Source of the DNA: an uncultured Lachnospiraceae bacterium
GTDB taxonomy: Bacteria; Bacillota; Clostridia; Lachnospirales; Lachnospiraceae
Direction of reading: 5' to 3'
Assembly: GCA_947564735.1 (NCBI GenBank)
Contig: CANOEC010000020.1
Span: 1 to 64,000, forward strand
Length of the DNA: 64,000 nt
The position numbers were made by a program, and so were the translations under genes. The notes under the pieces were generated by a model. The model was not told the DNA's origin and did not search any database. It saw only the letters and a program-made list of their open reading frames with translations. Shown one piece after another: positions 12,730 to 21,166 of this stretch (its first letter is position 1; each line of letters begins with the position of its first letter).

Positions 12730-13239
12730 TTAGGGTGTACCGCTGCCAATCTTCTTACCTGCCATAGCATCTCTAAAATTCTGCGCAGCATCGGTAGTTG
12801 TTCCAGCAGTATAATCAAACTTAACATTACCGTTCGCTTCTACCTCTACCTCTATTGTATATGTTGTCCAAGCAGTTTTACTAACACAAGTAGTCGCCAT
12901 TGTGTGAGCGGTTGTATTTACATCAAATCCTGCTTCGTCAAGTGCCTTATCCAAATTAGCAATACCAGCCACATCAATAGTTGTATTTGTGCCATTTACT
13001 ACAATATTGCCTGTACCTACTCCGAGCACATCACCTGTAGCCACATCCGGGTCAGATGCATAAATCTGAATAGCCGTTACAATTTCCGTTGCATTCGTAA
13101 CATCTGTTGAATTTCTTGACTTCTCAACATATTTCAGATACTGAGGTGCAAGAACAACGATCAGGACTGCCATAATAGCAATAACGATGATCAACTCAAC
13201 AAGGGAAAAACCTTTGTTGTTCATTTTTTCTTTTCTCAT
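12730..13239 (-). CDS. pilA: Major type IV pilin
   Basis: 169 residues from the ATG at 13237-13239, which has AAGGAG upstream. A longer reading from 13341 adds 34 residues with no leader character, so I reject it. Leader MRKEKMNNKG, then FSLVELIIVIAIMAVLIVVL, with Glu at +5, then APQYLKYVEKSRNSTDVTNATEI, the typical first helix of a pilin. The globular part is small, Thr/Ala/Val-rich and has one Cys. It is the only small, simple pilin in the cluster and sits between pilC and pilD, hence the major subunit. A 116-bp leader precedes it. Confidence 0.9.
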   Translation of the reverse strand: MRKEKMNNKGFSLVELIIVIAIMAVLIVVLAPQYLKYVEKSRNSTDVTNATEIVTAIQIYASDPDVATGDVLGVGTGNIVVNGTNTTIDVAGIANLDKALDEAGFDVNTTAHTMATTCVSKTAWTTYTIEVEVEANGNVKFDYTAGTTTDAAQNFRDAMAGKKIGSGTP

Positions 13240-13355
13240 TTCACTTTCTCCTTTTCCTCTTAGATTGTTTTGTTTGTTTCGGATATTCCCTAATACCCGT
13301 ATCTTAAACACGGCAGCTCCCCTACACACTGTCATGTTCAATTCTGTTACAAATT

Positions 13356-14570
13356 TTACAGATTATCCAGCGCCGCATACAAGTTAACCATAGGCGCCAT
13401 AACCGCACCAATCAGCACACCGACGATACAGGCAAGCACGATGATAATCATCGGCTCCATCGCCGCCATCAGAGACTGCACCGCCATCTCCACTTCTTCC
13501 TCATAATAATCCGCCAGCTTATTGAGCATTTCCTCCGTGGAACCGGCTTCCTCGCCGATACGAATCATATGGTAGACCATCGGCGGAAATAATCCGCTGG
13601 TCTGTAGCGGCTGGGACAGAGGCACACCAATCATAATCTGCTCCACAGCCCCTTTTAATGCTTCTTTAATCCAGATATTTCCCATCGTATCCGCTACGAT
13701 ATCCACTGCCTCTATCAAGGGCACGCCTGCCGTCAGCAACGTACTCAACGTTCTCGCCATCTGCGCCGAGGCGGATTTTACAACCAGATTCTTGATTGCA
13801 GGAATCTTAAGCGCCAGCTTGCCTACCACATGCTTACCGGAATTGGTCTTTGCCCATGTTTTAATCATAAACACCGCTATCGCCACTACCGGAACAATGA
13901 TAAACCAATAGTTCTGAATAAAGTTGCTCATTGCTACAACCGCTTTTGTAATAGCCGGCAATTCCGTTCCCAATTCTTCAAACATGTCCATATATCGTGG
14001 GATAACGAACACCAACATGACAATCACGACTGCCACCGCTACAAGAGCAACGACAATCGGGTAAATCATGGCTTTCTTTATGAGCGCCTGCGTCTTCGCC
14101 GACTTCTCGAACTGGATTGCCATACGCTCCATGGCAGTCTCTAAACTACCGGACGCCTCGCCCGCTCTCGCCATCTGTACCAGCAACTCCGGAAACACCT
14201 TCGGATGACGTGATAAAGAATCCGCGAAACTCTCACCCTTCTCCACGTCGGCACGGACTGCCTGCAGAGCCTTCTGCATCTTCACATTCTCTGTCTGTTC
14301 CGCCAGCATGTTAAGTGTCTGTATAATCGTGACACCCGCTCTGGTGATACTGGCAAACTGTCGGCAGAACACCGCCAAATCTCTCGGCGTCGGCTTACCG
14401 CCGAGGTCTATGTTAATATCCCTAGTCAGTGCATTCTGTTCCGTGAGATCCAGAACGATCATGCCCTGATTCTTTAATTCTCTCGTTACCTGCTCTTTAC
14501 TATCCGCATCTCTGCTGCCTTTGATTTCTTTGCCACTCTTATCAATTGCGACATAGCCCCATGTTGCCAT
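13356..14570 (-). CDS. pilC: Type IV pilus inner membrane platform protein PilC
   Basis: 404 residues from ATG 14568-14570, chosen because GGAGG lies 7 bases upstream. A further upstream start at 14615 lacks this signal. GspF/PilC family with two T2SF domains: the N-terminal part RDLAVFCRQFASITRAGVTI and FADSLSRHPKVFPELLVQM, and the C-terminal copy QMARTLSTLLTAGVPLIEAV and QPLQTSGLFPPMVYHMIRIG. Three or four membrane helices are visible, the last at the C-terminus. PilC links the ATPases PilB and PilT to the growing fibre. It is the first gene of the assembly operon, right after a promoter-like sequence at 14.69-14.72 kb. Confidence 0.95.
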   Translation of the reverse strand: MATWGYVAIDKSGKEIKGSRDADSKEQVTRELKNQGMIVLDLTEQNALTRDINIDLGGKPTPRDLAVFCRQFASITRAGVTIIQTLNMLAEQTENVKMQKALQAVRADVEKGESFADSLSRHPKVFPELLVQMARAGEASGSLETAMERMAIQFEKSAKTQALIKKAMIYPIVVALVAVAVVIVMLVFVIPRYMDMFEELGTELPAITKAVVAMSNFIQNYWFIIVPVVAIAVFMIKTWAKTNSGKHVVGKLALKIPAIKNLVVKSASAQMARTLSTLLTAGVPLIEAVDIVADTMGNIWIKEALKGAVEQIMIGVPLSQPLQTSGLFPPMVYHMIRIGEEAGSTEEMLNKLADYYEEEVEMAVQSLMAAMEPMIIIVLACIVGVLIGAVMAPMVNLYAALDNL

Positions 14571-14620
14571 GGCATATCCTCCGTATACTCCCCTATCTAT
14601 ACCGATATATATCATATGTA

Positions 14621-14639
14621 CGCCGAAACGCTTTCGGCG
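14621..14639 (-). promoter_or_regulatory. Hairpin in the pil operon leader
   Basis: CGCCGAAA cgc TTTCGGCG: a perfect 8-bp stem with a 3-base loop, about 50 bases before the pilC start codon and within the predicted 5' leader of about 117 bases. It could stabilise the mRNA or be part of a regulatory fold. I could not fit the whole leader to a known riboswitch. Confidence 0.45.
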
Positions 14640-14693
14640 ACAGGCTCACGTTACAGTTTGTCCCACTTTACATACCAGTACTTTGTGCCTTGT

Positions 14694-14722
14694 ATTATAC
14701 TACTTTATGTCAAAAAATGCAA
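14694..14722 (-). promoter_or_regulatory. Predicted sigma-A-type promoter of the pil assembly operon
   Basis: On the minus strand TTGCAT, a 17-base spacer, then TATAAT. The -10 box lies about 124 bases upstream of the pilC start codon. There is no closer candidate, and the upstream side is gene-free, so this is the likely start of the pilC-pilA-pilD-pilMN-pilO-minor pilin transcript. Confidence 0.6.
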
Positions 14723-15543
14723 ATATACTTAAAAAATTGGAATTTTTTTTATCTTTTTATGCAACATGTACAAAATGTTGTGGTTGGATATGACGACACT
14801 ACAATTATTATGTATACCTACGGCATCACCCTTGATGCGCCAATCAAAAAAACAGCCGATATGGAAACGGCGTCCCCTGTGAACTTAGCACTACTATTGT
14901 TTGATGTTGGGATATCCGCAACATCCCGAAACAAGCCCGGATGGCTCATTGAGGGCGGATGCGTCTGTCAGTCAATGTCCTGCCGGAATATGTCAGAAAA
15001 TCCATTCGACGAAACCAACACAAGAGTGCAATTTGTGCAATCTGCCATCTCAATTTACCAAAGGTTCATTTTGACCCCGACATCATTGTTTCCCAGCGTT
15101 TCAAAAAAGTCCACCGAATCCCCATAAACTATTTTTCTCAGAAAAAGGCTGCCGCAGATATTGACATTACTCGGATTGTTTCATTGCCATGCTGCATCCG
15201 GCATCATCCAACGTATAGGCTGCTTGCTAAGCACCTTCCGTTCTCCAGTTATGCCATGTCAACTCTTTCTCAACATTTTTCTTGTTTTCTATATTCAAGC
15301 TGATTAGCTTTACTATAGCAGTCTGCAATAAAATAACAACCATCATGGCATACATTGTACTTATTTCGGTATACTTTGTCGTTTTGCCTCCTTATACGCG
15401 TCCGCTCAGTAGGCGGTCCATTCAGTATCCCGCTTTTATTTTAAATGCCATAACCCGAAATGGAAACATCCTCGCACGGATTGTCCGTCCTGCGTCATAA
15501 AAATCCAATATCTCTATACAAATATTCACTCTCACGCATCCCA
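14723..15543. other. Gene-free stretch between the pil operon and the MBL gene
   Basis: About 820 bp without a convincing gene. It contains a 46-bp sequence shared with 40.7 kb, probably a relic of an insertion element. A minus-strand frame at 15227-15355 would encode 42 residues with one hydrophobic segment (MMVVILLQTAIVKLISL), but it lacks a ribosome binding site at its ATG. Other frames are broken by stops. I read the stretch as decayed mobile or former coding DNA separating pilB and the Rpn genes from pilC. Confidence 0.5.
15041..15086. repeat. 46-bp dispersed sequence, copy 1
   Basis: Runs from TCTGCCATCT to GACCCCGACATCAT. The same sequence with four substitutions and one inserted base lies at 40693-40739. 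Both copies are in gene-free DNA. The ACCAAA..TTTTGACCCC part resembles ends I associate with IS21-like elements, but no transposase is present, so this is a tentative relic. Confidence 0.5.
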
Positions 15544-16227
15544 TTAAGAGTTTGCTGCATACAAAAATTCTGTCCATTGTCCTCTATATAAAGGACAGGG
15601 CATATAGGGATGCTTTTCACCTGCCAGCTCACCATTTTTTAAAGCCACTGCATCCCGCAGATTCTTTTCTATGTAGCTGGCGTCAATGGGACACTCATGA
15701 TGGCTGGGAAAAACAAACCTTACATCATTTGCCAAATCGAGCAGTTTTTTCTGACTTTCAATATATAAATCTATGTTCCGATGTCCGCCAAACATGAAAA
15801 TCGGTCCGCCTTTCTGTACCGAATCTCCCGAAAACAACAGCTTCTTTTTCCGCTCTATCAATGCCACACTCCCGTAAGTATGCCCCGGAATCTCCACCGC
15901 CTCCAGACGAAATCCTCCGCACTCAAAAATATCACCCTCTTTCAGAGGCTGCAGACGGATATCATCTTTTATCAAATGCCAGTCCTTTTCATGCAGAAAA
16001 CACGTTCCAAAATCTTTTAATCCTCCGGCATGATCCGGATCCCCGTGTGTCATAAGCACCTTTACCGGCAAATCGGTTATCTTTTTCACTTCTTGACATA
16101 CACCGCTGTCTTCAAATCCGGTATCCATCAAAAGCGCTTCCTCTTCCCCGACAATAAGGAACTGCCGCACCCGCCCGTCGTCCAGAATATACATATTTTC
16201 CATGAATAAATCTACCTGCATAGTCAT
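15544..16227 (-). CDS. MBL-fold metallo-hydrolase
   Basis: 227 residues from ATG 16225-16227 (GAAAGG upstream; a GTG two codons earlier and an ATG two codons later are alternatives). The metal-binding motif reads THGDPDHAGG, i.e. HxDxDH instead of the usual HxHxDH. Further ligands are H of EIPGHTYGS, D of LFSGDSV and H of FPSHHECP, all in the expected order for glyoxalase II/RNase Z-type hydrolases. The substrate cannot be told from the sequence. It is a single gene beside the Rpn paralogues, 73 bp after the stop of the first one, and shows no link to pilus assembly. Confidence 0.85.
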   Translation of the reverse strand: MTMQVDLFMENMYILDDGRVRQFLIVGEEEALLMDTGFEDSGVCQEVKKITDLPVKVLMTHGDPDHAGGLKDFGTCFLHEKDWHLIKDDIRLQPLKEGDIFECGGFRLEAVEIPGHTYGSVALIERKKKLLFSGDSVQKGGPIFMFGGHRNIDLYIESQKKLLDLANDVRFVFPSHHECPIDASYIEKNLRDAVALKNGELAGEKHPYMPCPLYRGQWTEFLYAANS

Positions 16228-16300
16228 TTCCACCTTTCTCTTGCTCCGTCAGTCGTGTCCGTCGTCCAATGCTGTAGACAACATTATAGTATATTGCATC

Positions 16301-16627
16301 TTATAAGCCAAACTCCTTGAACAGCTCTTTCTGGTATTTCCTATCTTTTAGGGAACGTTTCATATCTTCTTCGCGTCCCTTCTCTATGAGGGCACTTATT
16401 AGGCTGTTCAATCTGTCCATTCCCTTCTTGATTCCCACCTGCTCTCCCTCTTCTCGTCCTTCCTGTCTCCCTTCTTCCCTTCCTTCCTGTCTCCCTTCTT
16501 CCCTTCCTTCCTGTCTTCCCTCTTCTCGTCCTTCCTGTCTCCCCTCTTCCCGTCCTTCCTGTCTCCCTTCTTCCCTTCCTTCCTGTCTGCACTTTCTCGC
16601 AAAATACGTCGTATAATATTCTCCCAT
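16301..16627 (-). CDS. Internal, separately translated C-terminal Rpn product (RpnS-like), predicted
   Basis: In-frame ATG at 16625-16627 (codon 284 of the full gene). Upstream is GGAGAAGGAG followed by TAGTT and the ATG, a spacing of 5, which is at least as good as the start signal of the full gene. The product of 108 residues (MGEYYTTYFARKC, the repeat block, then a conserved tail) matches the size and position of RpnS proteins that inhibit RpnL. The same signal and start are kept in the free-standing copy at 17.7-18.05 kb, which supports its use. Confidence 0.6.
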   Translation of the reverse strand: MGEYYTTYFARKCRQEGREEGRQEGREEGRQEGREEGRQEGREEGRQEGREEGRQEGREEGEQVGIKKGMDRLNSLISALIEKGREEDMKRSLKDRKYQKELFKEFGL

Positions 16628-17476
16628 AACTACTCCTTCTCCTTCCGCCTGTCTGTCCTGCATTCCAAGCAATATCTCTTCCAGCTCTTTTTCACCAGTC
16701 AATGCATACAACAGTCGCATCACCGGTCCGATATGCCTTATTATCTGTCCTGTCGGCTTATATGACTTTCCCTCTGCCAGATAGTCAACTACGATGCGCA
16801 TATCGCTTCTGAACCGTTGTCTGATTTCTTCTGGCAGATGTGCCATCGGGTAAAGATGGAGTTTAATATTGTCCACATACTTCTTAATCATTGGATTTTC
16901 AAGCTTATCCGCAAACAGTTCCCTCATATCGAGATGCGGCTTCCATTCCTTATCACCCCAATAAAGCACCAGAATCACTACCGGATATATCTGTCCTTCT
17001 TCATACTCATTCCGGTACACAGCCCCCTCATACCCAGCCTTGCGCAAGAGTAGACGATAGTTTTCATTCGACTCATTTTCCAGAATATACTGTATCTTTA
17101 TTGTCCGTCCTGCCACATCATCCGGCAATCCGGATATTTTGCTTCCACGCTTTATATCTTCCTTCTTCCCGTTTCTTCTACAGCTATGCACTGCCAGTCT
17201 GCCCTCTGTCCTATTCTCATAATCCATCGTTTCATATTTGCTCACATCATGATACTGATTATGCAGTCGTCCGTACTGCTCCTCTTCTGCCTCTGTTTTC
17301 AATCCCTTATCATTCCCTTTGCCTGTTATATCGGCATACAATGTCTCTGTGGGCGCGGCGCACAGCATTTCAGATGAGACTATCTGCTCGCCTTCATACA
17401 CCAGCGCATTGATGATATCTGCAAACACATCTGCTCTATTTTCCAGTTCCTTCGCCGTCAAATCTTTTTGTCCCAT
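16301..17476 (-). CDS. Rpn-family nuclease (PD-(D/E)XK transposase-like), full length, copy 1
   Basis: 391 residues. Residues 1-280 match the Rpn/YhgA-like family: DVFADIINALVYEGEQIV at the N-terminus and YILENESNENYRLLLRKAGY, YPVVILVLYWGDKEW in the core. Where family members usually read ENQ in this core, this protein reads ENE. The C-terminal part has six exact-length REEGRQEG repeats and ends in KELFKEFGL. Residue 284 is an internal Met with its own ribosome binding site, so a 108-residue C-terminal protein may also be made. Rpn proteins are DNA nucleases, some of them anti-phage toxins blocked by their own separately translated C-terminal part (established for RpnL/RpnS). Two paralogues lie directly upstream. 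GGGGAC precedes the ATG. Confidence 0.8.
   Translation of the reverse strand: MGQKDLTAKELENRADVFADIINALVYEGEQIVSSEMLCAAPTETLYADITGKGNDKGLKTEAEEEQYGRLHNQYHDVSKYETMDYENRTEGRLAVHSCRRNGKKEDIKRGSKISGLPDDVAGRTIKIQYILENESNENYRLLLRKAGYEGAVYRNEYEEGQIYPVVILVLYWGDKEWKPHLDMRELFADKLENPMIKKYVDNIKLHLYPMAHLPEEIRQRFRSDMRIVVDYLAEGKSYKPTGQIIRHIGPVMRLLYALTGEKELEEILLGMQDRQAEGEGVVMGEYYTTYFARKCRQEGREEGRQEGREEGRQEGREEGRQEGREEGRQEGREEGRQEGREEGEQVGIKKGMDRLNSLISALIEKGREEDMKRSLKDRKYQKELFKEFGL
16445..16588 (-). repeat. Six tandem 24-bp units inside the Rpn C-terminal part
   Basis: Six direct 24-bp units encode RQEGREEG six times with only silent differences between units. The neighbouring paralogue at 18.1 kb has a single REEG at this place. 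Such arrays change copy number by replication slippage without breaking the frame, so the length of the internal product is likely variable between strains. Confidence 0.9.
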
Positions 17477-17622
17477 ATGTCCCCTTTCTTCTGTCTATGC
17501 AGGACACATAGGTGTTTCACTTTCTTGCGCAGACTTAAGATTGTCTGTTTTTTGAAATTGCTCCATCGGCTGTTCCTGCCCTGTCTGTGAATAAGTGGCA
17601 GAATCTGCCGGATCATTCTGAG
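17477..17622 (-). repeat. Upstream region of Rpn copy 1, homologous to that of copy 3
   Basis: The 145 bp before the start codon (TGTCCCCTTTCTTCTGTC and onward on the plus strand) match the region before the paralogue at 19178-19318, including GGCTGTTCCTGCCCTGT and GGCAGAATCTGCCGGAT. The match ends before a hairpin of GAGGGGA/TCCCCTC at about 17621-17644. This shows that gene and control region were duplicated together. Confidence 0.75.
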
Positions 17623-17708
17623 GGGACTTTGAAAATCCCCTCGATGTTTAAAAATTCTAACTCAATTAACTCAATTTTTCCTTATATGCAGTCTTAATCA
17701 TCCATATC

Positions 17709-18047
17709 TTATAAACCAAACTCCTTGAACAGTTCTTTACGATATTCCTTATCTTTCAAGGAACGCTCCACATCTTCTTTACGTCCCTTCTCTATAAGCG
17801 CACATATCAAGTTGCCCAGCCTGTTCGCTGCTTGCTGGATTTCCCGCATTACTTCCGGTTGTACATCCTGCTGCATACCTGTCTGTAGCTCTATTTCCTT
17901 ACCTATCCGCATCCATACCTCCCCAGCTATCTGTAGACCTTTCTCCCTGCCTATCTGCAACCCTTCTTCCCTGCCTATACGCAACCCTTCCTCCCTGCCT
18001 TCCGCCCTGCACTTTTTTGCAAAATACGTCGTATAATATTCTCCCAT
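17709..18047 (-). CDS. Free-standing Rpn C-terminal protein (RpnS-like)
   Basis: 112 residues from ATG 18045-18047. It aligns over its whole length with the C-terminal part of the two full-length neighbours (MGEYYTTYFAKKC at the start, KELFKEFGL at the end). Homology also covers the ribosome binding site GGAGAAGGAG and stops at an in-frame TAG just before it, so no nuclease domain is left. The middle has imperfect REEGLQIG-type repeats and then a segment different from the neighbours. It may be a truncated leftover, but retention of exactly the start signal and an intact frame suggests a working antitoxin-like protein. A GTG two codons earlier is less likely because the spacing would be too short. 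Confidence 0.65.
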   Translation of the reverse strand: MGEYYTTYFAKKCRAEGREEGLRIGREEGLQIGREKGLQIAGEVWMRIGKEIELQTGMQQDVQPEVMREIQQAANRLGNLICALIEKGRKEDVERSLKDKEYRKELFKEFGL

Positions 18048-18133
18048 GACCACTCCTTCTCCTTCCTAATATTTATGCAGGACGCACTGAAACTTCGTTT
18101 TCTTCTATAAATGCAGTGGTAATCATTTTCGTC

Positions 18134-19177
18134 TTACAGGCCAAACTCCTTAAGCAATTCTTTCTGGTATTTCCTATCTTTTAGGGAGCGTTTCATATCT
18201 TCTTCACGTCCCTTCTCTACAAGGGCGCTTATTAAGCTGTTCAGTCTGTTGATTCCCACCTGCTCTCCTTCTTCCCGTCCTTCCTGCCTGCACTTTCTCG
18301 CAAAATATGTCGTATAATACTCTCCCATAACCACTCTTTCTCCTTCCGCCTGTCTATCCTGCATTCCAAGCAGTATCTCTTTTAGCTCTTTTTCACCTGT
18401 CAAGGCATACAGCAGCCGCATCATCGGTCCAATATGCCTGATTCTCTGTCCTGTCGGTTGATATGACTTTCCCTCTGCCAGATAGTCAACCACGATACGC
18501 ATATCACTTCTGAACCGCTGTCTGATTTCTTCTGGCAGATGTGTCATCGGATAAAGATGGAGCCTGATGTTATCCACATATTCCAATAGTTCCTCATCTG
18601 CAAGCTTATCCGCAAACAGTTCCTGCATATCAAGATGCGGCTTCCACTCCTTATCACCCCAATAAAGCACCAGAATCACTACCGGATATATCTGCCCTTC
18701 TTCATACTCATTCCGGTACACGGCCCCTTCATACCCAGCCTTGCGCAAAAGCAGACGGTAATTTTCATTCGACTCATTTTCCAGAACATACTGTATCTTT
18801 ATCCTCTGTCCTGCCACACCATCCTGCTGTCCGGACACCTTACTTCCACTTCCTATATTCTCTTTCTTCCTGCTTCCTCTACAATTATGCGCTGCCAGTC
18901 TGCTCGTTGTCCTATTCTCATAATCCATCGTTTCATATTTGCTCACATCATAATACTGGTTACGCAATCGCCCGTACCGCTCCTCCTCTGCCTCTGTTTC
19001 TAATTCCTTATCATCCTCCTTTTGTGTCATTCCCGCATACAGTGTTTCCGTAGGCGCCGCCTGCAGCATCTGTGGCAGAACCACCTGTTTCCCTTTATAC
19101 ACCAGCGCATTAATGATATCTGCAAATACATCCGGGCTGCTTTCCAGTTCCTTCGCCGTCAAATCTTTTTGTCCCAT
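18134..19177 (-). CDS. Rpn-family nuclease, full length, copy 2
   Basis: 347 residues, about 80 percent similar by eye to the copy at 16.3-17.5 kb over the first 300 residues (DVFADIINALVYKGKQVV, YVLENESNENYRLLLRKAGY, YPVVILVLYWGDKEW). The C-terminal part is short: one REEG unit, then NRLNSLISALVEKG and KELLKEFGL. The internal ATG at codon 284 is present (18326-18328), but the signal before it is GGAGAAAGAG, weaker than in the other copies, and the product would have 64 residues. This copy might therefore depend on an antitoxin from a neighbouring gene. It starts with the same sequence before the ATG as copy 1. Confidence 0.8.
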   Translation of the reverse strand: MGQKDLTAKELESSPDVFADIINALVYKGKQVVLPQMLQAAPTETLYAGMTQKEDDKELETEAEEERYGRLRNQYYDVSKYETMDYENRTTSRLAAHNCRGSRKKENIGSGSKVSGQQDGVAGQRIKIQYVLENESNENYRLLLRKAGYEGAVYRNEYEEGQIYPVVILVLYWGDKEWKPHLDMQELFADKLADEELLEYVDNIRLHLYPMTHLPEEIRQRFRSDMRIVVDYLAEGKSYQPTGQRIRHIGPMMRLLYALTGEKELKEILLGMQDRQAEGERVVMGEYYTTYFARKCRQEGREEGEQVGINRLNSLISALVEKGREEDMKRSLKDRKYQKELLKEFGL

Positions 19178-19318
19178 ATGTCCCCTTTCTTCTGTCTATG
19201 CAGGACAACGGGTGTTTCGACTTCTTGCTTCGGACTTGGCATTGTCTGTTGTTTGGAAAGTATTCCACCGGCTGTTCCTGCCCTGTTTGTGAATAAATGG
19301 CAGAATCTGCCGGATAAA
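19178..19318 (-). repeat. Upstream region of Rpn copy 2, homologous to that of copy 1
   Basis: Matches 17477-17622 at most positions, starting with TGTCCCCTTTCTTCTGTC after the start codon. It probably holds the promoter of the gene. Beyond it, up to the pilB stop at 19463, the DNA holds only a hairpin. Confidence 0.7.
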
Positions 19319-19345
19319 ATGAATAAACTCATTTGAAGGAAACCG

Positions 19346-19368
19346 GAGCGGGTTTGGATGACCCGCTC
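19346..19368 (-). terminator. Hairpin downstream of pilB
   Basis: GAGCGGGT ttggatg ACCCGCTC, an 8-bp GC-rich stem about 95 bases after the pilB stop. On the minus strand it is followed by GGTTTCC rather than a clean T run, so it is a possible terminator only. Confidence 0.4.
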
Positions 19369-19462
19369 ACCGTTTCACGAGTTGTTAAGATAAGTGTACA
19401 GAAAAAAGATTTCTTTGTCAATGTTTATCTATTGTAAAAATTAACGAAATATCATTTATTAT

Positions 19463-21166
19463 TTAGATATCAAAGGATACGCGCATCATCTCCGGAACAG
19501 ATGTGATTCCTTCCAGCACATATTTAGTTGCACTCATGCGGAGCGTGTTCATGCCTTCTTCCAAAGCCTTGTTCTTGATATCTTCCGCAGAACCATTTTT
19601 GCTGATGATTGTCTTAAGCGGCTGGGAAACCTCCATAATCTCATAGACACCGATTCGCCCTTTGAACCCGGTGCCGTCGCATCTCGGACAGCCGCACGGC
19701 TCATAAATCGTAAGGTCTTCATCCGGATCCCGCATCAAGAGTTCCAGATCGTCAACGCTGGCTTTCTTCGCGCGCTTACAATCCGGGCACAGCCGGCGCA
19801 CAAGACGCTGCGCGATAACACCGATTGTCGCATCGGCAATCAGATACGGTTCAATTCCCATATCCGCCAGACGCGTAATCGTACTTGCCGCCGAGTTCGT
19901 ATGCAGCGTGGAAACAACCAGATGCCCCGTGATAGACGCCTGTACAGCGATGGATGCTGTCTCTTGGTCTCGAATCTCACCAATCATAATGATATCCGGG
20001 TCCTGACGCAGAATGGAACGCAGCGCCGATGCAAATGTCAGATTCGCCTTATTATTAACCTGCACCTGATTGATACCGTCTATATTCGCCTCCACCGGGT
20101 CTTCTACGGTGATAATATTAACGTCTTCTTTGTTCAGCTCACTCAACGCAGTATACAATGTGGTAGACTTACCGCTTCCGGTAGGTCCGGTTACCAGCAG
20201 AATACCGTGCGGATTCTTAAGGATATGGTCGAATTTCTTCAGTTCATCCGGTCTTAAACCAAGCTGGCTCTTCTCTTTTGTCAGTGCATTCTTGGACGTC
20301 AGACGCATAACGATTTTCTCGCCGTAGACCGTGGGCAGAATGGAAACACGGATATCATACTCACGCCTGTCCACAATCTGCGTAATACGTCCGTCCTGCG
20401 GTTTTCTCTTCTCTGAGATATCCATACCGCCGATAATCTTGATACGTGCCACCATTGCCGGCAGAAGACGCACACTGTAAGTTGCCTTCTCGTACAAAGC
20501 GCCGTCGATACGGTAGCGGATACGCACCTGCCGTTCCATCGGCTCAATATGAATATCGGAAGCCCTCTGTCTGACCGCCTGCTCTATCATACCTTTGACA
20601 AGCTGTACGATGGGCGAGTTATTGACATCTTCACTGTAGAGGTCTTCCTGCTCCACCATCTGGCTTTCTTTTTCTCTCGTATACTCTTCCAGTGCAGAAT
20701 TTACCTCCGCCTGTCCGTAGTATCTGTCGATTGCCAGCATAACGCTTCCGGTTGTCGCCACCACCGGCTCGACCTGCATATTGGTAATGATATTAATGTC
20801 ATCCAGTGCTGCTATGTCCATGGGGTCAGCCATTGCAACCCGCAGCATCATATTATCCTGTGAGTACTCAAAAGGCAGTACTTTGTATTTCTTAAGCACA
20901 TTCGCCGGAACAAGCTTCAAGATGTCTTCTTCTATCTCCACATTCTGCAGTTCGACCATGTCATATTGAAGCTGACTACTGAGCGCCTTGGCAATCGTCT
21001 CCTCCGTTACGATTCCCTCATCTACCAGTACCTCGCCCAGCTTCCTGCCAGTACCCTTTTGTCTGGAAAGACCTCTGTCCAAATCGTCAATGGTAATGAC
21101 TCCGCTATTTACAAGCACATCACCGAGACGCAGTTTTTTTCTGTTGATATCCATACCGTGTAACAT
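19463..21166 (-). CDS. pilB: Type IV pilus extension ATPase PilB
   Basis: 567 residues, typical size. The N-terminal T2SSE_N part carries two copies of a LGDVLV/LGEVLV segment (residues 10-55). The ATPase part has Walker A GPTGSGKSTTLYTAL at about 325-340, the Asp box and Walker B DPDIIMIGEIRD, the His box TGHLVVSTLHTN, and a zinc site formed by CPDC (about 457) and CGCPRC (about 495), which separates extension ATPases from PilT. It powers pilin insertion through PilC. The start could be Met1 or the ATG at codon 5, since GGGG lies directly next to the first. It is separated from pilC by the Rpn genes, which is unusual. Confidence 0.95.
   Translation of the reverse strand: MLHGMDINRKKLRLGDVLVNSGVITIDDLDRGLSRQKGTGRKLGEVLVDEGIVTEETIAKALSSQLQYDMVELQNVEIEEDILKLVPANVLKKYKVLPFEYSQDNMMLRVAMADPMDIAALDDINIITNMQVEPVVATTGSVMLAIDRYYGQAEVNSALEEYTREKESQMVEQEDLYSEDVNNSPIVQLVKGMIEQAVRQRASDIHIEPMERQVRIRYRIDGALYEKATYSVRLLPAMVARIKIIGGMDISEKRKPQDGRITQIVDRREYDIRVSILPTVYGEKIVMRLTSKNALTKEKSQLGLRPDELKKFDHILKNPHGILLVTGPTGSGKSTTLYTALSELNKEDVNIITVEDPVEANIDGINQVQVNNKANLTFASALRSILRQDPDIIMIGEIRDQETASIAVQASITGHLVVSTLHTNSAASTITRLADMGIEPYLIADATIGVIAQRLVRRLCPDCKRAKKASVDDLELLMRDPDEDLTIYEPCGCPRCDGTGFKGRIGVYEIMEVSQPLKTIISKNGSAEDIKNKALEEGMNTLRMSATKYVLEGITSVPEMMRVSFDI

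Follow-up and report, generated by a model that had tools for sequence, protein, structure and literature searches.

Here, we describe a cluster of three genes of the Rpn family, L2, S and L1, on contig C20 of the 4.52 Mb genome of an uncultured Lachnospiraceae bacterium (positions are those of the window, the whole 64,000-nucleotide stretch of DNA that was analyzed). All three genes are on the minus strand and are read in the order L2 (19177-18134), S (18047-17709) and L1 (17476-16301). L2 (347 aa) and L1 (391 aa, with similar 24-nt repeats coding GREEGRQE) are full-length rpn genes whose products match PF04754 (Transposase_31/YhgA-like) with 25.6 and 22.8 bits, respectively, over the Pfam cut-off of 21, which bears out the Rpn-type identity proposed in an earlier, sequence-only reading of this DNA; S has no PF04754 match over the cut-off, since it lacks that domain. 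L1 and L2 carry acidic residues at the conserved positions of the family (D77, E133 and E135 in L2), of which D77 and E133 do not vary among 50 aligned proteins (L1, L2 and 48 homologs hand-picked from the 120 listed of 460 matches), whereas position 135 is occupied by E in 33 and by Q in 17. We take D77, E133 and position 135 to be catalytic residues of the PD-(D/E)XK type. The genome (G000) carries many Rpn-type genes: apart from L1 and L2, four matches to PF04754 lie over the cut-off, as do four of its seven matches to PF12784.

RpnL toxins have been reported to be blocked by RpnS, a product translated from an internal start (Zhong et al., 2023; PMC10327210). S corresponds only to the C-terminal part of L1 and L2, and the match opens at a shared ribosome-binding site. 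Within L1, the in-frame ATG at 16627 is preceded by GGAGAAGGAG and then five bases, and opens an RpnS-like part of 108 aa (16304-16627, minus strand); the same GGAGAAGGAG and five bases stand upstream of the ATG of S at 18047, from which 112 aa are encoded (17709-18047), and the counterpart in L2 is the ATG at 18328, with GGAGAAAGAG, which opens a part of 64 aa (18137-18328). The ribosome-binding site of S, GAAGGAGAAGGAG, and its spacer (18048-18065) lie directly after an in-frame TAG (18068-18066), the codon that precedes the in-frame GAA GGA GAA GGA, where both L1 and L2 have GCG. The version of S in the list of open reading frames is two codons longer and starts at GTG 18053. The sequence-only reading had described just these features, namely the L1 internal ATG with a ribosome-binding site at five bases, a neighboring gene made of the C-terminal part only with homology from the same site after a TAG, and an intact free-standing copy from the internal Met, and we find each of them in the sequence, with the frame, start codon and ribosome-binding site of S all intact.

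The C-terminal part of L1 and S share 60% identity (E = 7.8e-24), so that chance resemblance is no issue. The head MGEYYTTYFA and most of the tail are common to S, L1 and L2, with 10 differences between S and L1 in the last 38 residues. The lengths of the three RpnS parts differ by multiples of four residues, S being equal to the L1 part plus one tetrad and to the L2 part plus twelve, with differing repeat residues.

S starts 86 nt after the L2 stop codon. A leader-like stretch of 26 nt before S (18058-18083, minus strand) has 77% identity to the L1 leader (17480-17505) and the L2 leader (19181-19206), with GTCCTGCATA exact; because 22 of 300 shuffles for L1 and 5 of 300 for L2 attain the local alignment score, this match is only suggestive. 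Farther upstream, L1 (17550-17613) and L2 (19252-19315) have a common region with 89% identity over 64 nt, of which no copy is listed before S. As S keeps its own ribosome-binding site 86 nt behind L2 and has no upstream region of the L1/L2 type, the two genes are probably transcribed together. On the 3' side, the flanks of S and L2 are similar (score reached in 7 of 1000 shuffles); the L1 flank is similar to neither, its scores being reached in 905 (against S) and 277 (against L2) of 1000 shuffles.

The internal Met is invariant in all 50 aligned proteins. A start codon (ATG in 16, GTG in 3) together with a Shine-Dalgarno (SD)-like stretch is present at the internal site in 19 of 19 genes of this rpn family examined in the genus, L1 and L2 among them. 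Six frames had been set aside before the count, L049 and L063 as duplicates and L056, L057, L058 and L067 as members of a more distant rpn family. At the corresponding ATG of these last four, the motif used flagged an SD-like stretch in L056 and L058 but not in L057 and L067. The residues around the internal start vary among the 19 genes (EGEGVV, EKGEKIT, KRGGQVT, REEDEVT), and their summed SD energy is -185.2, compared with a mean of -152.0 and a best value of -178.8 when the codons were resampled 2000 times under an unchanged protein sequence, the 19 tests not being independent because the genes are related. Singly, the SD of L1 and of L2 is no better than resampled codons (fractions 0.69 and 0.52), and among the in-frame ATG and GTG codons of its own gene the internal site ranks first of 22 in L1 and fifth of 23 in L2. 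In the structure model of L2 (mean pLDDT 73.8), the C-terminal helical part opens with a predicted helix whose first residue is the internal Met, M284. The invariant Met and the 19 starts with an SD-like stretch support an internal start across the rpn family and fit the gene-within-gene organization suggested earlier for L1. An RNA switch, in which the L1 leader (TGTCCTGCAT) would pair with the stretch before the internal start, was dropped because the inverted complement is not conserved (10 nt in L1, 8 nt in L2 and 7 nt or less in 12 orthologs).

Structural searches with the S and L2 models (Foldseek) gave no match at E<=0.001, and VIA-align with the L2 model gave a best Z of 5.2 with unrelated chains close behind. 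The S model has helices at residues 3-55, 64-87, 90-98 and 100-110 (mean pLDDT 63.8, with residues 1-26 below 50), for comparison with the RpnS three-helix bundle of PDB 7TH0. Sequence searches of the PDB found no relative with the L profile and six rows with the S profile, all weak (E 0.21-0.81). The number of repeats in the RpnS part varies by four-residue units, as in RpnL/RpnS systems, and among the 16 proteins of alignment A1 that have this tail type, the length is 0 mod 4 in eight, including the seven closest (P0002-P0008), and 3 mod 4 in the other eight. Two unlike RpnS tails follow the same internal Met in A1, ending EFGL/EYGL or like AFVKE...LYRE, and at one locus (L042) the head of the L1/L2/S clade (MGEYYTTYFAKKC) is joined to the other tail type; tails have therefore been swapped within the RpnS part.

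Comparative analysis

An ortholog of pilB is present in 59 of 78 genomes of the genus, our own included. For 40 of the remaining 58, we examined 1.4 to 5.2 kb downstream of it, a stretch that in some genomes was truncated by a contig end. An rpn gene lies there in 15 of the 40 genomes and none in 25, and 14 of the 15 have a single rpn gene. Twelve of these orthologs begin MGQKDL and are open to the tail; G028 and G003 are without the MGQKDL N-terminus and G086 is broken, with the RpnS part open in all three. The genomes nearest by PilB identity (G013, 98%, and G001, 96%) have one full rpn gene each. Solo copies starting at the same Met, which were proposed earlier as something to look for in relatives, were found at the orthologous pilB locus in 0 of the 40 genomes. 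Because relatives with rpn at pilB usually have one such gene, and none has a solo RpnS there, the L2-S-L1 array is a local expansion as far as 40 genomes show.

In our window, the rpn cluster and a gene which presumably encodes a metallo-beta-lactamase-fold protein (15544-16233) lie between genes that we take to be pilB-like and pilC-like (12730-21166 in all), and the metallo-beta-lactamase gene was found at this place in 0 of the 40 relatives. Among the 20 relatives with pilC in the examined stretch, pilC is within ~0.8 kb of pilB in seven, is separated from it by one rpn gene in seven, and lies across a larger gap in six. Two adjoining genes of G028 (L192, G028:C27:12700-17800) share the tail EKLCEQVRKKL..., with an rpn match in the N-terminal part of one only, which suggests an exchange of the tail between these neighbors.

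It is not unusual in the family for an RpnS-like tail to lie in a short frame, as 13 of the 47 matches outside our own genome in the family search are in open frames of less than 180 aa. A first set of short C-terminal frames comprised 15 places, two of them in our own genome (C2, C23), where the frames exceed the RpnS part, begin upstream of it, or hit a contig end, and none begins MGEYY. A second set of 13 places, made up of 12 of the 13 short frames from the family search (the thirteenth is in the first set) and G086:C26, has MGEYY in none. Nine frames of the second set are away from contig ends and show no rpn N-terminal remains upstream when compared with a library of 15 full-length proteins; these nine could be solo RpnS-like genes of other rpn families.

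A profile search for short proteins, with the best 8000 candidates scored, gave 73 matches, at least 12 of which (S included, chosen by eye) have the internal Met as their first residue. The other 11 are not counted as solo genes; when compared with the RpnS parts of 116 full-length proteins, five were 94-100% and six 75-89% identical. P0170 (72 aa, on a 116 kb contig) is equal to the RpnS part of P0005 plus one tetrad, and the genome of P0005 is absent among the 17 genus genomes checked. At a contig end in a relative of the same family (L124, G107:C204), three to four RpnS-like C-terminal units stand in tandem, with frames of 34 (at the edge), 82, 98 and 122 aa; they may represent either solo RpnS copies in an array or a repeat in decay. 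At another locus (L128, G429:C121:17500-22700), a frame of 105 codons that carries an RpnS-like tail starts behind AAGGAGG, one codon past a TGA, and no rpn N-terminal remains were found in the 1.3 kb upstream with the library of 15 proteins; we regard this frame as a candidate solo RpnS-like gene of another rpn family.

Discussion

A separate RpnS-like gene next to RpnL-like genes had been put forward as a new arrangement. Zhong et al. (2023; PMC10327210) refute this, as they describe RpnS as a separate gene in E. coli, with ypaA downstream of rpnE and its product detected by tag, and, in some strains, with a second rpnCS behind rpnC. In E. coli K-12, ypaA starts at the same Met, behind the same AAAAGGAGAGATTA, right after the rpnE stop codon, has one more tetrad than rpnE and matches it at 44 of 52 aligned residues; in the K-12 record, ypaA is annotated as a pseudogene and RpnE is given as inactive. 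Because rpnE-ypaA has the same anatomy as our locus, the solo-RpnS arrangement was already known: in rpnE-ypaA and rpnC-rpnCS, too, a full-length rpn gene is followed by a separate gene equal to its internally started C-terminal part, and in rpnE-ypaA the solo gene has the same start Met and SD directly after a stop codon. Unlike ypaA, S lies between two full-length paralogs; it is also more diverged from both (60% and 73% identity) than ypaA is from rpnE, and the L2-S-L1 genes belong to a Lachnospiraceae branch.

More broadly, our genes share at the sequence level with the RpnL/RpnS systems described in that study (rpnA-E, rpnP2 and C. difficile rpn; PMC10327210) a nuclease-type N-terminus, an internal start with SD and tetrapeptide repeats near the start of the variable part, and differ from them in having E-N-E rather than E-N-Q at the conserved motif in L1 and L2 (33 of the 50 aligned proteins in all). 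A literature search that covered few subscription journals found no second study of RpnS. The flanking of the solo gene by two paralogs is the difference in layout that we see; the cluster thus adds a case from distantly related bacteria to a kind of system already described.

The most likely origin of S is a third rpn copy in the tandem array, from which the nuclease part has been lost. As an explanation of the whole cluster, we favor, at somewhat better than even confidence, a lineage-specific tandem expansion in which S is a shortened third copy that would still make a free RpnS-like protein. One Rpn gene beside pilB would have expanded in tandem in this lineage, with L1 and L2 as ordinary gene-within-gene Rpn genes, each predicted to encode an RpnL nuclease of the PD-(D/E)XK type together with a helical C-terminal part; the latter would also be translated alone as RpnS and would hold RpnL inactive. 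The third copy would have lost its nuclease part, probably when a deletion removed the sequence between leader and internal start, leaving S on what is probably the L2 transcript, as ypaA lies behind rpnE. S most likely still yields a free RpnS-like protein whose cognate RpnL is gone. The leader-like stretch, the L2-like 3' flank and the missing upstream region fit a shortened tandem unit. The dissimilar 3' flank of L1 counts against this explanation, as does the presence of S in one lineage only, which leaves no independent test of selection. The weak leader match, the S-specific changes in conserved columns, the unremarkable SD of L1 and L2 and the structural searches without a match at E<=0.001 also weigh on that side.

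Alternatively, S could be a partial duplication of an RpnS part beside L2, as ypaA behind rpnE appears to be, instead of the remnant of a third full-length copy. The homology to the L coding sequence opens exactly at the ribosome-binding site, as does the second copy in E. coli (ypaA), and both points agree with such a duplication. The leader-like sequence, weak match though it is, and the L2-like 3' flank suggest instead a whole shortened unit, and with a tail dS of 1.23 from L1 and 1.41 from L2, compared with 0.81 between L1 and L2, S is no recent copy of either gene. We consider a partial duplication possible, at clearly less than even chances.

The proposed loss of a nuclease part has a parallel in the same genome, where two rpn copies on the minus strand (L085, C14:79000-88000; frames C14:84029-85126 and C14:82080-82784) lie on either side of a 332-codon gene that we take to be GHMP-kinase-like; the pieces of the two copies that align are 92% and 96% identical. 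The downstream copy has lost ~420 nt of its core and changed frame, with its internal start and RpnS part intact and two extra tetrads. The nuclease part has thus been lost with the RpnS part surviving more than once, and such repeated loss fits selection for a harmless antitoxin and plain decay alike.

Whether shortened from a third copy or not, S may be an inert relic, left over from an rpn copy that broke and with a C-terminal frame that happens to have stayed open, and we give this reading a smaller but real share of the probability. It would agree with the absence of a solo gene at this locus in the 40 other genus genomes, with the lost or damaged N-terminus and open C-terminal frame of 3 of the 15 orthologs and one C14 copy, and with a single-sequence protein search in which S had one match at E<=0.001, its own protein, among 81 candidates. 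No RpnL whose RpnS part matches S is seen in the genome, where L1, at 60%, is the best match other than S itself, and the changes specific to S show no avoidance of conserved columns (P = 0.70 and 0.50). Against an inert relic stand the intact frame, start codon and ribosome-binding site of S, which also keeps 14 of 19 conserved tail columns, compared with 14 in L2 and 15 in L1. In the 37-residue tail, dN/dS between S and L1 is 0.129/1.23, a value that includes the time before S stood alone, and an identical S protein is found on 6 contigs with no variants, which may be one strain.

The sequence-only reading took S to be an antitoxin acting in trans on its paralogs L1 and/or L2. The shared head and tail, the near lengths of the L1 part and S (108 and 112) and the position of S directly behind L2 speak for such action. 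However, according to Zhong et al. (PMC10327210), tetrapeptide repeats set RpnS specificity, E. coli RpnAS and RpnBS acted on their own RpnL only, with no cross-inhibition between RpnA and RpnB, and one extra four-residue repeat in RpnC ended inhibition; a C. difficile rpn is also reported there to give an internal product. Because published RpnS is specific and S is longer than the L1 part by one tetrad and than the L2 part by twelve, with differing repeat residues, action of S on L1 or L2 would be the less likely outcome, and we judge it improbable. The observation behind the sequence-only reading holds, then, and its gene-within-gene interpretation is supported by comparison; its claim of a new arrangement does not hold, and trans action on paralogs is not supported. 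Carrying similarly little probability, S could instead be a retained free antitoxin with a specificity of its own, as its 112-residue repeat length and the absence of a matching RpnL among the genes seen in the genome would allow, that would guard against incoming RpnL nucleases or enter mixed complexes with L1 or L2 and so tune their release.

The cluster brings a layout of rpnL with a separate rpnS to the Lachnospiraceae, with a traceable history: relatives with rpn at pilB usually have one gene, and here there is a tandem array with a solo RpnS. Since its three RpnS parts are one, eleven and twelve tetrads apart in length, the cluster is also a natural setting in which to test how closely an RpnS must match its RpnL. 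If S is active, this would suggest that RpnS remnants act as immunity genes, and if S is a retained antitoxin, damaged rpn copies that keep only the RpnS part would be immunity genes and not debris.
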